Source of the DNA: Cucumis sativus
Lineage: Eukaryota > Streptophyta > Magnoliopsida > Cucurbitales > Cucurbitaceae
Direction: 5' to 3'
DNA length: 64,000 nt
NCBI RefSeq assembly: GCF_000004075.3
Contig: NC_026656.2
Location: forward strand, 434,001-498,000
Below are positions 2,593-13,904 of the stretch, in pieces. Position 1 is the first letter of the stretch; every line of letters begins with the position of its first letter. The notes below the pieces were generated by a model. That model did not search any database. It was not told the origin of the DNA and saw nothing but the letters and a program-made list of their open reading frames with translations. Both the position numbers and the translations under genes were made by a program.

Positions 2593-3969
2593 ATGTCTTC
2601 CTCCATTCCCTCTCATGCCACGGTAAACTCCACCGCTACTACCAATTTCAAATCTCGAATACTTCCATTTCATTTTCCGGTCCTCAAATCCTTCCGATCG
2701 ACACTCTTGTCCACCAATGCTCTCTCCAATTCCCGTTTTCGGAAGTCTGCCCACCAGTACGACGCTCAAAGCACCACGAACACTCTCTCCAAATCTCAAA
2801 ACCGAACCAGCGATTCTGTCTATAGTCTTCCATCGACGGTGGATTTACTGGCTCTGTGCGAGGAGGGTAAGGTAATTGACGTTCTGGAATACATTGGCCA
2901 AGGTGCTAAAGTCGACTATGGCGTTTTTACTGCTTTGTTGAATTCTTGTTGTAATTTGAAGCTGCTTGAGGCTGGAAGAAGGGTGGATGGGCTGTTGAAG
3001 GGGACGAAATTTCGTGGGGATTTGGAATTGAACAATCGGTTGATTGAAATGTATTCGAATTGTGGCTGTATGAAAGATGCACGTAAGGTGTTTGATAAAA
3101 TGGCTAACAAGGATACTAGCAGTTGGAATTTGATGATCAAAGGGTATGGAGATAATGGGGAAGGGGATAATGGGTTGGCATTGTTTGAGCAAATGAAGAA
3201 TGCTGGTTTGCAACCAAATTCAGAAACGTTTCTGGTGGTTTTAGCTGCTTGTGCCATGGCTGAAGCTGTGAAGGAAGGTGTATTTTACTTCAAAATAATG
3301 GCAAATGAATATGGAATCAATCCTGAAATTGAACATTATTTGGGAGTTGTTGATGTTCTTGGAAAATCTGGTCATTTGATTGAAGCTGAGGAGTTCATTG
3401 AGAAAATGCCCATCAATCCCACAGCTAAAATTTGGGATGCCCTTAGAAACTACGCTCGACTCCATGGAAACATGGAGCTTGAAGATCGAGCTGAGGAGTT
3501 GATGTTCTCTCTTGACCCGTCCACGACGTCCACAACTATCAAACCATCACTCCCTCCACGGAGGAAGCAATCGAGCACGAACATGTTGGAGGAGAAGGAC
3601 AGGGTGAGGGAGTTTAGGTGTGCAATGCCTTATAAGGAAGAGGGTGAAGGGAGGCTGAAAGGATTGAATGGACAAATGAGAGAAGCAGGGTATGTTCCAG
3701 ATACAAGATATGTGCTACACGACATTGATGAAGAGGCCAAACAGCAGGCTTTGCAATACCATAGCGAGCGGCTAGCTATTGCTTATGGGCTGATCAGTAC
3801 ACCAGCAAGAACGACACTGAGGATCATCAAGAATCTTCGAATTTGCGGCGATTGTCATAATGCAATCAAAATCATGTCAAAGATTGTTGGGAGAGAGTTG
3901 ATTGTTAGAGATAATAAACGTTTTCATCACTTTAAAGACGGCAAATGCTCTTGTGGGGATTACTGGTAA
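2593..3969 (+). CDS. DYW-type pentatricopeptide repeat protein, organellar RNA editing
   Basis: Intronless gene of 458 residues. The first roughly 60 residues are rich in Ser, Thr and Arg with few acids, consistent with a mitochondrial or plastid transit peptide. Residues about 110-305 hold a short array of PPR-like helices, for example '[20 protein letters not shown]' and '[21 protein letters not shown]'. The C-terminal part (about 340-458) is a DYW cytidine-deaminase domain with all zinc and catalytic signatures: HSE at 390-392, CGDCH at 418-422, paired histidines at 445-446, CSC at 452-454, and terminal DYW at 456-458. DYW proteins bind organellar transcripts and help C-to-U editing. Few repeats before a full DYW domain place it with the short DYW group (MEF8, DYW2 and At1g29710 type in Arabidopsis). 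Which member is orthologous, and its editing site, cannot be told by eye. Confidence 0.92.
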
Positions 3970-10975: not shown

Positions 10976-11047
10976 GGGGCGTTCCGAGAATCGAACTCGG
11001 GACCTCTCGCACCCAAAGCGAGAATCATACCACTAGACCAAACGCCC
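10976..11047 (-). tRNA. tRNA-Pro(UGG): tRNA-Pro, anticodon UGG
   Basis: On the minus strand a complete 72-nt cloverleaf can be folded without an intron. The acceptor stem is GGGCGTT paired with AACGCCC and followed by discriminator C. The anticodon arm is CTCGC-TTTGGGT-GCGAG with anticodon TGG. The T arm is CCGAG-TTCGATT-CTCGG. A T5 run on the minus strand (10967-10971) begins about 4 nt past the 3' end and should terminate RNA polymerase III. It lies antisense between PLA2 and eL28. Confidence 0.95.
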
Positions 11048-11411: not shown

Positions 11412-13904
11412 ATGGCGAACGTTCCGGGGCAGTTGGTATGGGAAATCGTTAAGAAGAACAGCTCTTTCCTCGTTAAAGAGTTTGGCAGAGGCAATGCCAG
11501 TGTTCAATTCAGCAAAGAGCCTAACAACCTCTACAACCTCAACTCCTACAAGCATTCTGGTAAGATCCAATACTTTTATCATTTTGAATAGTTAAACGTT
11601 GGAAATGATTGACCTTTTTGTTATATACTTTCTTATTGAGGAGGAAGTATTTTATCTTGCTTTTGTTTTAGTGTGTTCGGTTTGTTACTAGTTTGGTTAT
11701 GGAACTTCATTTGGGTGTTTTTTTCAGGGTTGGCAAATCGTAAGACGGTGACCATTCAGCCTGGAGGCAAAGATTTGTCAGTATTGCTCGCCACGTCAAA
11801 GACGAAGAAACAGAACAAACCAGCAAATTCGCTTCACAAATCCGTCATGAGGAAGGAATTTCCTCGCATGGCCAAGGCTGTGATTAATCAGGTAACTAGC
11901 GTTTCCAGGTTGTCTCGTTTATGCCCATCGAGATGAAATTTGTGTTTCTGAAGTCCGATCATTCTTTACATGTTGTCAATACTTCCTGTAGTTGTCATTG
12001 GCCGTGTATGGTTTGTCATCTTGTAATTATTCTGCTGAATATTCTGTGACATTTTCCCGTTCTTCAATCTTTTGATACAAGATCCGAGATTCAATTCTCA
12101 TCAACTTCATCATGTTAACACTTTGGATGCTATGCTTTTCTTTCTCCTTTTAGGATTAAGATTAAGAAGTAGTCAGTAATGTATTTCTGTTTTATTGTTT
12201 TATTAGAAATTGGATTTGATACAAATATGATATTGAATGTGCATTGTTGCAGTGACGAGAAGCTAACATGTAAGAAGGGCTGCTTTTGTAGCGGCATCTT
12301 CTATGAAATATATTTGTTACGCTTGGCTTCTGAGCACAAATTTTCATTTTCTACCATGTTAAGACTGTTTTCATGTAAGGAGGTGACTTCTATTGTGTAT
12401 TTCTGATGAAATCTATTTCTTACGGTTGGCTTCATCTGTTTTACCCAAATCTTCCTAATGTGGCATAATGTGAAACTTCTATTAGCAGAAATTTAATGGA
12501 ATGACTTGGGGTGGGCAAACATTTTAGTTGAACCTTGTTTTGTGATGATGAGCTGCTAACATGTTAGAAGGGGTCACTTTTGTAGTGGCGTCTTCAATGA
12601 GATATATTTGTTACGCTTGGCTTCTGAGCATTATTCTCATCTTGGCTGTAAGCAGCTTCTATCTTTTAATGGTTTTGCGTGATTGATGTATCCCTGATTA
12701 TATTCCTTAGAGCTTTGTTGTTGGAAGTTTTTCTCATCATCCCATTGTCGCACTAACTCTCCTCTTGGCCGAAAACAACTTTTACTCTTACTGTGATGAT
12801 GAGCTGCTAACATGTAAGAAGAGGTCACTTTTGTAGTGGCGTCTTCAATGAGATATATTTGTTACGCTTGGCTTCTGAGCATTATTCTCATCTTGGCTGT
12901 AAGCAGCTTCTATCTTTTAATGGTTTTGCGTGATTGATGTATCCCTGATTATATTCCTTAGAGCTTTGTTGTTGGAAGTTTTTCTCATCATCCCATTGTC
13001 GCACTAACTCTCCTCTTGGCCGAAAACAACTTTTACTCTTACTGTGATGATGAGCTGCTAACATGTAAGAAGAGGTCACTTTTGTAGTGGCCTCTTCAAT
13101 GAGATATATTTGTTACGCTTGGCTTCTGAGCATTATTCTCATCTTGGCTGTAAGCAGCTTCTATCTTTTAATGGTTTTGCTTGCTTGATGTATCTCTAAT
13201 TATATTCCTTAGAGCATTGTTGAAGTTTTTCTCATCATCCCATTGTTGAAGTTTTTCTCATCATCCCATTGTTGCACTAGTTCATCTCTTGGCCGATAAC
13301 AACTTTTACTCTCACTGTGATGATGAGCTGCTAACATGTAAGAAGAGGTCACTTTTGTAGTGGCCTCTTCAGTGAAATCTATTTGTTACGCTTGGCTTCT
13401 GAGCATTAATTCTCCTTTTGGCCGAAAACAACCTCTACCTTTTATTTGTTTTGCTTGATTGGATCTCTGATTATGTTCCCTAACGCTTGCTTGATGTAAT
13501 TTGCCATAACTTCCTGTAGCATTATATCAAACTTAAACTGTTACTGCAATGATGAGCTGCTAACATGTAAGAAGGTGTTGCTTTTGTAGTGGCATCTTCA
13601 GTGAAATCTTTTTGTTACGCTTGGCTTCTGAGCAATAAATTATCAAATGAATGTGGTTAAGAGTCTTTATTCTAGTATACTAGTGAAGGTTTGTATATTG
13701 TTATCTTCTTATTGTTACTTCAGTTAGTTTGTTGCTAAACTTGGAGTGCACTTAATTATTTTGCAGGTCGCTGACAACTACTACCGCCCAGACTTGAAGA
13801 ATGCTGCCCTTGCTAAGCTAAGCGCAGTGCACAGGAGCCTCAAGGTCGCCAAATCAGGTGTGAAGAAGAGGAACAGACAGAGTGTTACCCGCGGTAGGAA
13901 GTGA
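11412..13904 (+). CDS. RPL28: 60S ribosomal protein eL28
   Basis: Three coding exons: 11412-11559, 11728-11891 and 13767-13904, giving 149 residues. The protein begins [20 protein letters not shown], continues [20 protein letters not shown] and ends RQSVTRGRK. This is cytosolic large-subunit protein eL28, basic and of normal family length. A 5'-UTR intron probably ends directly before the ATG (acceptor TTTGTAG ending 11411, donor CAG|GTCTG near 11235). The second coding intron (11892-13766) is 1,875 bp, unusually long for this gene, and carries six tandem snoRNA-like blocks. The promoter has a telo-box and a TATA box. In Arabidopsis the orthologue (At2g19730, from memory) lies in the same neighbourhood as several genes of this window. 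Confidence 0.96.
12248..12336 (+). ncRNA. Box C/D snoRNA-like copy 1 (diverged)
   Basis: An 89-nt block in the eL28 intron. Box C is GTGACGA (12252-12258), with one change from RTGATGA, and box D is CTGA (12330-12333). The antisense element ACGCTTGGCT ends one base before box D. TGC at the 5' end pairs with GCA at the 3' end. The internal hairpin is GCTGCT-TTTGT-AGCGGC. It is the most diverged copy, and its imperfect box C may weaken function. Confidence 0.65.
12541..12630 (+). ncRNA. Box C/D snoRNA-like copy 2
   Basis: A 90-nt block with box C ATGATGA (12545-12551), box D CTGA (12624-12627), the invariant antisense element ACGCTTGGCT before box D, and the internal hairpin GTCACT-TTTGT-AGTGGC. 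Together with its spacer it forms a 251-bp unit that differs from the next unit at about two positions. Confidence 0.78.
12792..12881 (+). ncRNA. Box C/D snoRNA-like copy 3
   Basis: A 90-nt block with box C ATGATGA (12796-12802), hairpin arms at 12824-12829 and 12835-12840, guide ACGCTTGGCT (12864-12873) and box D CTGA (12875-12878). It is the clearest reference copy. The base expected to direct 2'-O-methylation, fifth upstream of box D, is G12870. Confidence 0.8.
13043..13132 (+). ncRNA. Box C/D snoRNA-like copy 4
   Basis: A 90-nt block nearly identical to copy 3. Box C ATGATGA, box D CTGA, hairpin and guide are all kept, while its downstream spacer has an extra internal duplication and several changes. 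The block is therefore better conserved than its surroundings. Confidence 0.78.
13316..13405 (+). ncRNA. Box C/D snoRNA-like copy 5
   Basis: A 90-nt block with box C ATGATGA (13320-13326) and box D CTGA (13399-13402). The guide and hairpin are unchanged. The box C'-like segment here is GTGAAAT instead of ATGAGAT. The spacer after it is largely different from those of copies 2-4. Confidence 0.78.
13545..13634 (+). ncRNA. Box C/D snoRNA-like copy 6
   Basis: A 90-nt block with box C ATGATGA (13549-13555), box D CTGA and the invariant guide. TGC/GCA ends can pair. The internal hairpin is GTTGCT-TTTGT-AGTGGC, still paired through G-U wobbles. It lies about 130 bp before the 3' splice site of the intron. 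Confidence 0.76.

Follow-up and report, generated by a model that had tools for sequence, protein, structure and literature searches.

A tandem array of predicted snoR24 box C/D snoRNA genes, six intact and one decayed, in an intron of cucumber eL28

Box C/D snoRNAs are stable, fibrillarin-bound RNAs of about 70–120 nt, marked by a box C (RUGAUGA) and a box D (CUGA) near a short terminal stem. An antisense element upstream of box D or D′ recognizes the target, in which the base opposite the fifth upstream nucleotide is methylated. Within a 64,000-nucleotide stretch of the Cucumis sativus genome (hereafter ‘the window’), an initial annotation proposed that six recurring blocks in an intron of the gene for ribosomal protein eL28 form a tandem cluster of such RNAs. 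This raises the question of what these blocks are, which RNA they would guide upon and how so many came to lie side by side.

The host gene is well defined. Three coding exons, joined over GT-AG introns, encode a 149-aa eL28; the protein shares 100% identity with cucumber 60S ribosomal protein L28-1 and matches Pfam Ribosomal_L28e (E 6.3e-35):

11412..11559, plus strand: eL28 coding exon 1 (joined ORF; 100% to L28-1; Pfam Ribosomal_L28e)
11728..11891, plus strand: eL28 coding exon 2 (joined ORF)
11892..13766, plus strand: eL28 coding intron 2, which spans 1875 nt and carries the predicted snoRNA array (GT at 11892, AG ending at 13766)
13767..13904, plus strand: eL28 coding exon 3 including the stop (joined ORF and sequence)

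The cluster (12248–13634) lies entirely inside coding intron 2 (11892–13766), where the initial annotation had placed it. A tRNA-Pro gene (anticodon TGG; 10976–11047, minus strand) lies a short distance ahead of the eL28 gene, on the other strand. Elsewhere in the window, positions 2593–3969 of the plus strand hold a single ORF of 458 aa with a C-terminal DYW, whose sequence suggests a PPR-DYW protein.

Covariance-model searches assigned all six blocks to a known Rfam family, snoR24 (RF00132), which each of them matched over the full model (1–92 of 92) at 73.3–83.6 bits. The gathering score of this family, at or above which we counted a sequence as a member, is 38 bits.

12248..12336, plus strand: snoR24 copy 1, the most divergent intact copy, box C GTGACGA (RF00132, 83.6 bits)
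12541..12630, plus strand: snoR24 copy 2 (RF00132, 74.5 bits)
12792..12881, plus strand: snoR24 copy 3 (RF00132, 77.3 bits)
13043..13132, plus strand: snoR24 copy 4 (RF00132, 78.0 bits)
13316..13405, plus strand: snoR24 copy 5 (RF00132, 73.3 bits)
13545..13634, plus strand: snoR24 copy 6 (RF00132, 77.3 bits)

The reading as a tandem box C/D cluster of 89–90 nt blocks was thereby supported, now with exact coordinates and family matches of 73–84 bits. One copy measures 89 nt and five measure 90 nt, with start-to-start distances of 293, 251, 251, 273 and 229. Given E-values between 6.5e-14 and 1.8e-11 in the 64 kb search, chance similarity of the six blocks is excluded. A search of the whole cucumber assembly (226.6 Mb, 88 contigs) returned at least six RF00132 matches at E ≤ 0.001, and those reported were the six array copies; the count is a lower bound, as 55 of 148641 first-look candidates were scored. 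The initial annotation did not recognize such a six-copy amplification of one guide in eL28 as known, but the guide belongs to a known Rfam family with a published Arabidopsis target. The description of the copies as homogeneous likewise applies in part: it fits copies 2–5 (93–99% pairwise identity), but not copy 1, which is 83–88% identical to the others.

Several other assignments were considered and discarded. A snoZ278 match over copy 6 scored 20.9 bits against a gathering score of 36 (E 0.49) and was taken as chance. The cucumber genome has another eL28 gene (C3:35918484-35919807), and a snoR24 copy there was rejected, with no RF00132 match up to E 1 across 3501 bases (locus L011). Exact-match scans of viral and genome contig collections with the 22-base guide-to-box-D pattern revealed no relatives of the array.

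Inspecting the copies for the hallmarks of the class bore out the features initially described. Box C reads ATGATGA in copies 2–6 and GTGACGA, with one mismatch to RUGAUGA, in copy 1; box D is CTGA in all six. The pairing ends are TGC (copies 1 and 6) or TGT (copies 2–5) with GCA, yielding a terminal stem of three pairs in every copy, the third pair being U-G in copies 2–5. While 19 of the 90 columns in the six-copy alignment vary, the stretch before box D is indeed invariant: columns 67–90, comprising guide, box D and terminal stem, are identical throughout.

13109..13132, plus strand: invariant block, copy 4 as the example (guide, box D CTGA and terminal stem; columns 67–90)

The notion of different guides in different copies was ruled out by this invariance, and the Rfam snoR24 consensus line carries the same guide and box D as the cucumber copies. 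Variable columns were fewer in columns 66–90 (1/25) than elsewhere (18/65), a difference whose p value (Fisher, 0.019) is merely descriptive, since the block was picked after viewing the alignment and the copies are not independent.

The guide points to a specific site on ribosomal RNA. Its longest contiguous Watson-Crick pairing with rRNA spans 10 bases in the 3′ part of the LSU, identically in all six copies, and places the D+5 position of each on an LSU cytidine that is followed by the A-loop U at a distance of 85 nt and by the U35 site at 123 nt. These positions refer to a stand-in eukaryotic LSU rather than to cucumber 25S, with landmarks set by short motifs; the contig supplying it (L020) covers the first 1408 and the last 671 LSU bases, without the middle, plus 18S and 5.8S. 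In the part of the Arabidopsis modification map available to us, SnoR24 is the guide assigned to 25S C2837, and U2922 in the A-loop and C2960, assigned to U35, follow C2837 by 85 and 123 nt (Wu and others, PMC8053127). Two other papers, likewise accessible in part, number the AtU35 site C2949; as this reflects another numbering, that of Wu and others is used throughout. Because both distances agree with Arabidopsis as mapped there, we identify the target site as the C2837 equivalent.

It is this register match to the published site, and not complementarity as such, that constitutes the evidence: among 1000 shuffled guides, 33 also reached a contiguous run of 10 pairs at some position of the four rRNA parts, which makes complementarity alone weak. 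With G-U pairs allowed, copy 6 reached 11 bases both in 18S and in the 5′ LSU part, with runs that start nine bases from box D, miss D+5 and thus lie out of guiding register. Judging from pairing and register, the snoR24 copies very probably guide rRNA methylation.

Two observations were made alongside the target search. Two bacterial MAG records, L019 and L020, each contain an exact match to a 38-base piece of eukaryotic LSU rRNA. Of these, L019 is best classed by Rfam as bacterial LSU and L020 as a eukaryotic rDNA unit; the presence of the latter in a bacterial MAG is probably contamination. We also considered snoR24 as the plant counterpart of U35 (the yeast snR73/human U35 site) and rejected it, as cucumber carries its own U35 match, whose guide differs. 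That match (snoZ161_228, RF00328) occupies positions 1501–1596 of locus L012 (C3:37520456 onwards), and snoZ105 (RF00145) follows at 1700–1770, beginning 199 nt after the U35 start, which makes a two-member cluster of different families.

Folding of the copies predicted an internal hairpin of 10–12 pairs between box C and a weak box that we read, from its sequence, as a putative C′. The hairpin appeared in the predicted fold of all six intact copies.

13069..13097, plus strand: predicted internal hairpin, copy 4 as the example, between boxes C and C′ (12 pairs, columns 27–38 with 44–55)

Across the hairpin columns, 95.8% of cells pair, as compared to 41–66% when the partners are slid by 1–3 columns. 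Two of the 12 pairs change on both sides and seven never vary, a covariation equalled by 113 of 500 shuffles of these six sequences; the hairpin is thus compatible with the data and unproven by covariation. With z-scores ranging from -0.01 to -2.80 in the six copies, fold energy alone is no evidence. Taken together with the shared prediction, we regard the internal hairpin as likely. The copies also share a conserved UAACA (columns 17–21), able to pair with UGUUA (columns 69–73) immediately before the guide bases that pair with rRNA, and both motifs are upper case in the Rfam snoR24 consensus line. As these columns never vary, the alignment is uninformative on this pairing, which may be a reason why invariance extends past the 10 bases paired with rRNA.

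Between copies 1 and 2, we identified a seventh, decayed copy that was missing from the initial annotation:

12350..12442, plus strand: snoR24 relic with no box D, a degenerate box C, two guide substitutions and no predicted internal hairpin (RF00132, 33.7 bits)

Its RF00132 score (E 0.002) falls under the gathering score of 38, and we therefore call it a relic and not a family member. Its descent from the array is nonetheless apparent in a local alignment score of 70 against copy 5 (maximum among 200 shuffles, 38) and in a match of 27 bits (rough E 0.00055) to a model, R1, made from the six copies. Against the 3′ LSU part, the relic’s guide forms a run of no more than 6 pairs, and the fold of the relic has a z-score of 0.49. 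Of the seven non-core stretches of the intron, the remaining six showed nothing that exceeded their own shuffles. The searches thus support a tandem array of snoR24, a plant box C/D snoRNA, with six intact members and a decayed seventh, as far as sequence can tell.

The spacers retain a record of how the array grew. Over 251 positions, units 2 and 3 show 2 differences, which both lie in the core (2/90); the spacers following copies 2 and 3 are identical (161/161), as are the 150 bases upstream of copies 3 and 4. Between copies 1 and 6, in contrast, the cores are 88% identical, whereas the downstream flanks (for copy 6, the 160 bases that follow) are 51% alike, against 51% when shuffled. Near-identical recent units combined with an old likeness confined to the cores imply recent whole-unit duplications on top of older ones, and core-to-core gene conversion is a possible contributor. 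The initial annotation had described constant cores amid diverged spacers, which is true of older pairs such as copies 1 and 6, but does not hold for the youngest, where the spacers are identical and the cores differ at 2 positions.

The explanation that best accommodates these data, and in which we place high confidence, is that the eL28 intron carries six functional-looking snoR24 copies that guide methylation of the C2837 equivalent and that have multiplied by tandem birth and death. Family, location, boxes, complementarity with its register and the duplication record are read directly from the analyses above, and for transcription, processing, protein binding and methylation we draw on established knowledge of C/D snoRNAs. 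By analogy with that class, the array would be transcribed together with the eL28 gene; after splicing, the cores of about 90 nt would be trimmed to the C/D kink-turn and would associate with the common C/D proteins, fibrillarin among them. The guide before box D would then direct a 2′-O-methyl group onto the 25S cytidine equivalent to Arabidopsis C2837, in the numbering of the Arabidopsis map (PMC8053127). Local tandem duplication would have occurred repeatedly, with gain and loss of copies: copies 2–4 would be the youngest, copies 1 and 6 would date from earlier rounds, and one has decayed. Points against this explanation are the weakness of complementarity taken alone, the longer G-U-containing runs of copy 6 elsewhere in rRNA, the location of the target site on a stand-in LSU, the imperfect box C of copy 1 and the core of the youngest pair, which is no more conserved than its spacer.

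The strongest alternative concerns the number of copies and not their function. Unequal crossing-over in a tolerant intron may have set copy number neutrally, with one or two functional copies sufficing and the rest decaying; we judge this to fall just short of an even chance. It is compatible with the best explanation and disputes dosage only. The presence of a decayed copy speaks for it, as does the near-identity of the youngest units through their spacers, which is expected of recent duplication on which selection has had no time to show. Copies 1 and 6, however, have cores that remain 88% identical and a guide block that is invariant although their flanks resemble shuffled sequence, a contrast implying that at least several copies have long been kept functional, or else have been converted core to core. 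The earlier claim of selection on the core accordingly stands for the older pairs and the relic, but not for the youngest duplicates, which show no excess core conservation. The relic, in which loss of box D goes with a damaged guide, speaks more strongly for maintained function of the intact six than does the contrast between core and spacer.

An alternative of a different kind, which we consider improbable, holds that the snoR24 guide also or mainly addresses U2 snRNA, with D+5 on C29. Counting G-U pairs, the invariant segment can form 12 uninterrupted pairs with U2 positions 28–39, across the branch-point-recognition stretch, and the same duplex with D+5 on C29 forms in all six copies; this length was reached by 4 of 2000 shuffles of one guide. 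Several of its pairs are, however, internal G-U pairs. The best-energy duplex with U2 (-12.6 kcal/mol) is weaker than that with the rRNA site (-19.3), and 159 of 2000 shuffles did as well or better. The U2 gene used (L014) was matched over only 100 bases and may be a truncated copy; it is one of six U2 loci fetched out of 23 U2 matches and was picked for its canonical branch-point stretch. The best-scoring U2 match in the genome is another locus, L013 (C6:24840908), at 103.9 bits. Its branch-point-recognition stretch departs from the canonical one, and the locus may represent a divergent or nonfunctional U2 gene.

Published Arabidopsis assignments cut both ways. In the portion of the map available to us, U2 C29 is methylated and U2 A39 is listed as a further SnoR24 target, but C29 is assigned to SnoR101 (PMC8053127). 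For A39, the three longest duplexes per copy include none with a CTGA-like box at the right distance; over the longest duplex that covers A39 (12 bases, G-U allowed), box D would address C29 instead. On these pairings, U2 C29 as a second snoR24 target is a weak lead. More doubtful still is an extension of it, in which selection for dosage has amplified a guide with two targets: one invariant antisense element would direct methylation of both the 25S C2837 equivalent and U2 C29, next to the branch-point-recognition sequence, with supply tied to eL28 transcription. If this were true, ribosome and spliceosome modification would rise together.

Least probable, and in our view barely credible, is a plain intronic tandem repeat with an old snoR24 likeness and no present function: the tandem structure of copies 2–4 does take in the spacers, but boxes C and D, the terminal stem, the guide and the predicted hairpin are preserved in all six intact copies, whereas loss of box D in the seventh goes together with a broken guide and the absence of that hairpin from its predicted fold. 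The assembly search, whose count of six is a lower bound, listed no RF00132 match outside the array, so that cucumber without the array would seem to lack snoR24.

We thus return to an array of functional-looking rRNA guides and to its place among known plant systems. Arabidopsis SnoR24 (RF00132) resembles the cucumber copies over their whole length and shares their target register, that of the published C2837, and the available part of the map marks it as having multiple gene variants (PMC8053127). The cucumber family is arranged as six tandem copies and a relic, all in one eL28 intron. Plant snoRNA families are described, in the accessible portion of the literature, as having multiple paralogous members in clusters and genome-wide, with clusters such as U15a-U15b-snoR7b-snoR18b, U36Ia-U36IIa-U36IIb and snoR22a-snoR23-snoR22b (PMC5122169). 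These, too, set members of one family side by side (three in the case of U36), but they contain two or three members of a family, as compared to six intact copies plus a relic in cucumber. For rice, intronic gene clusters with several snoRNAs in introns are described in general terms, with a single-family array of the cucumber kind unmentioned in the portion of that article available (PMC8351944). Among the literature matches listed, drawn mainly from open papers and covered as titles and abstract openings, none described a six-copy snoR24 array in eL28. Guide, target and paralogous plant snoRNA clusters are known already, and the locus is no new kind of system. New are the six-plus-one array, the hairpin predicted in the six copies and not in the relic, and the weak U2 C29 lead.

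For the biology of this snoRNA family, the locus means that a single intron preserves a clean record of snoRNA birth and death, in which recent, old and decayed copies adjoin one another and the spacers serve as a built-in yardstick. The array would also permit testing whether snoRNA copy number alters the degree of rRNA methylation.
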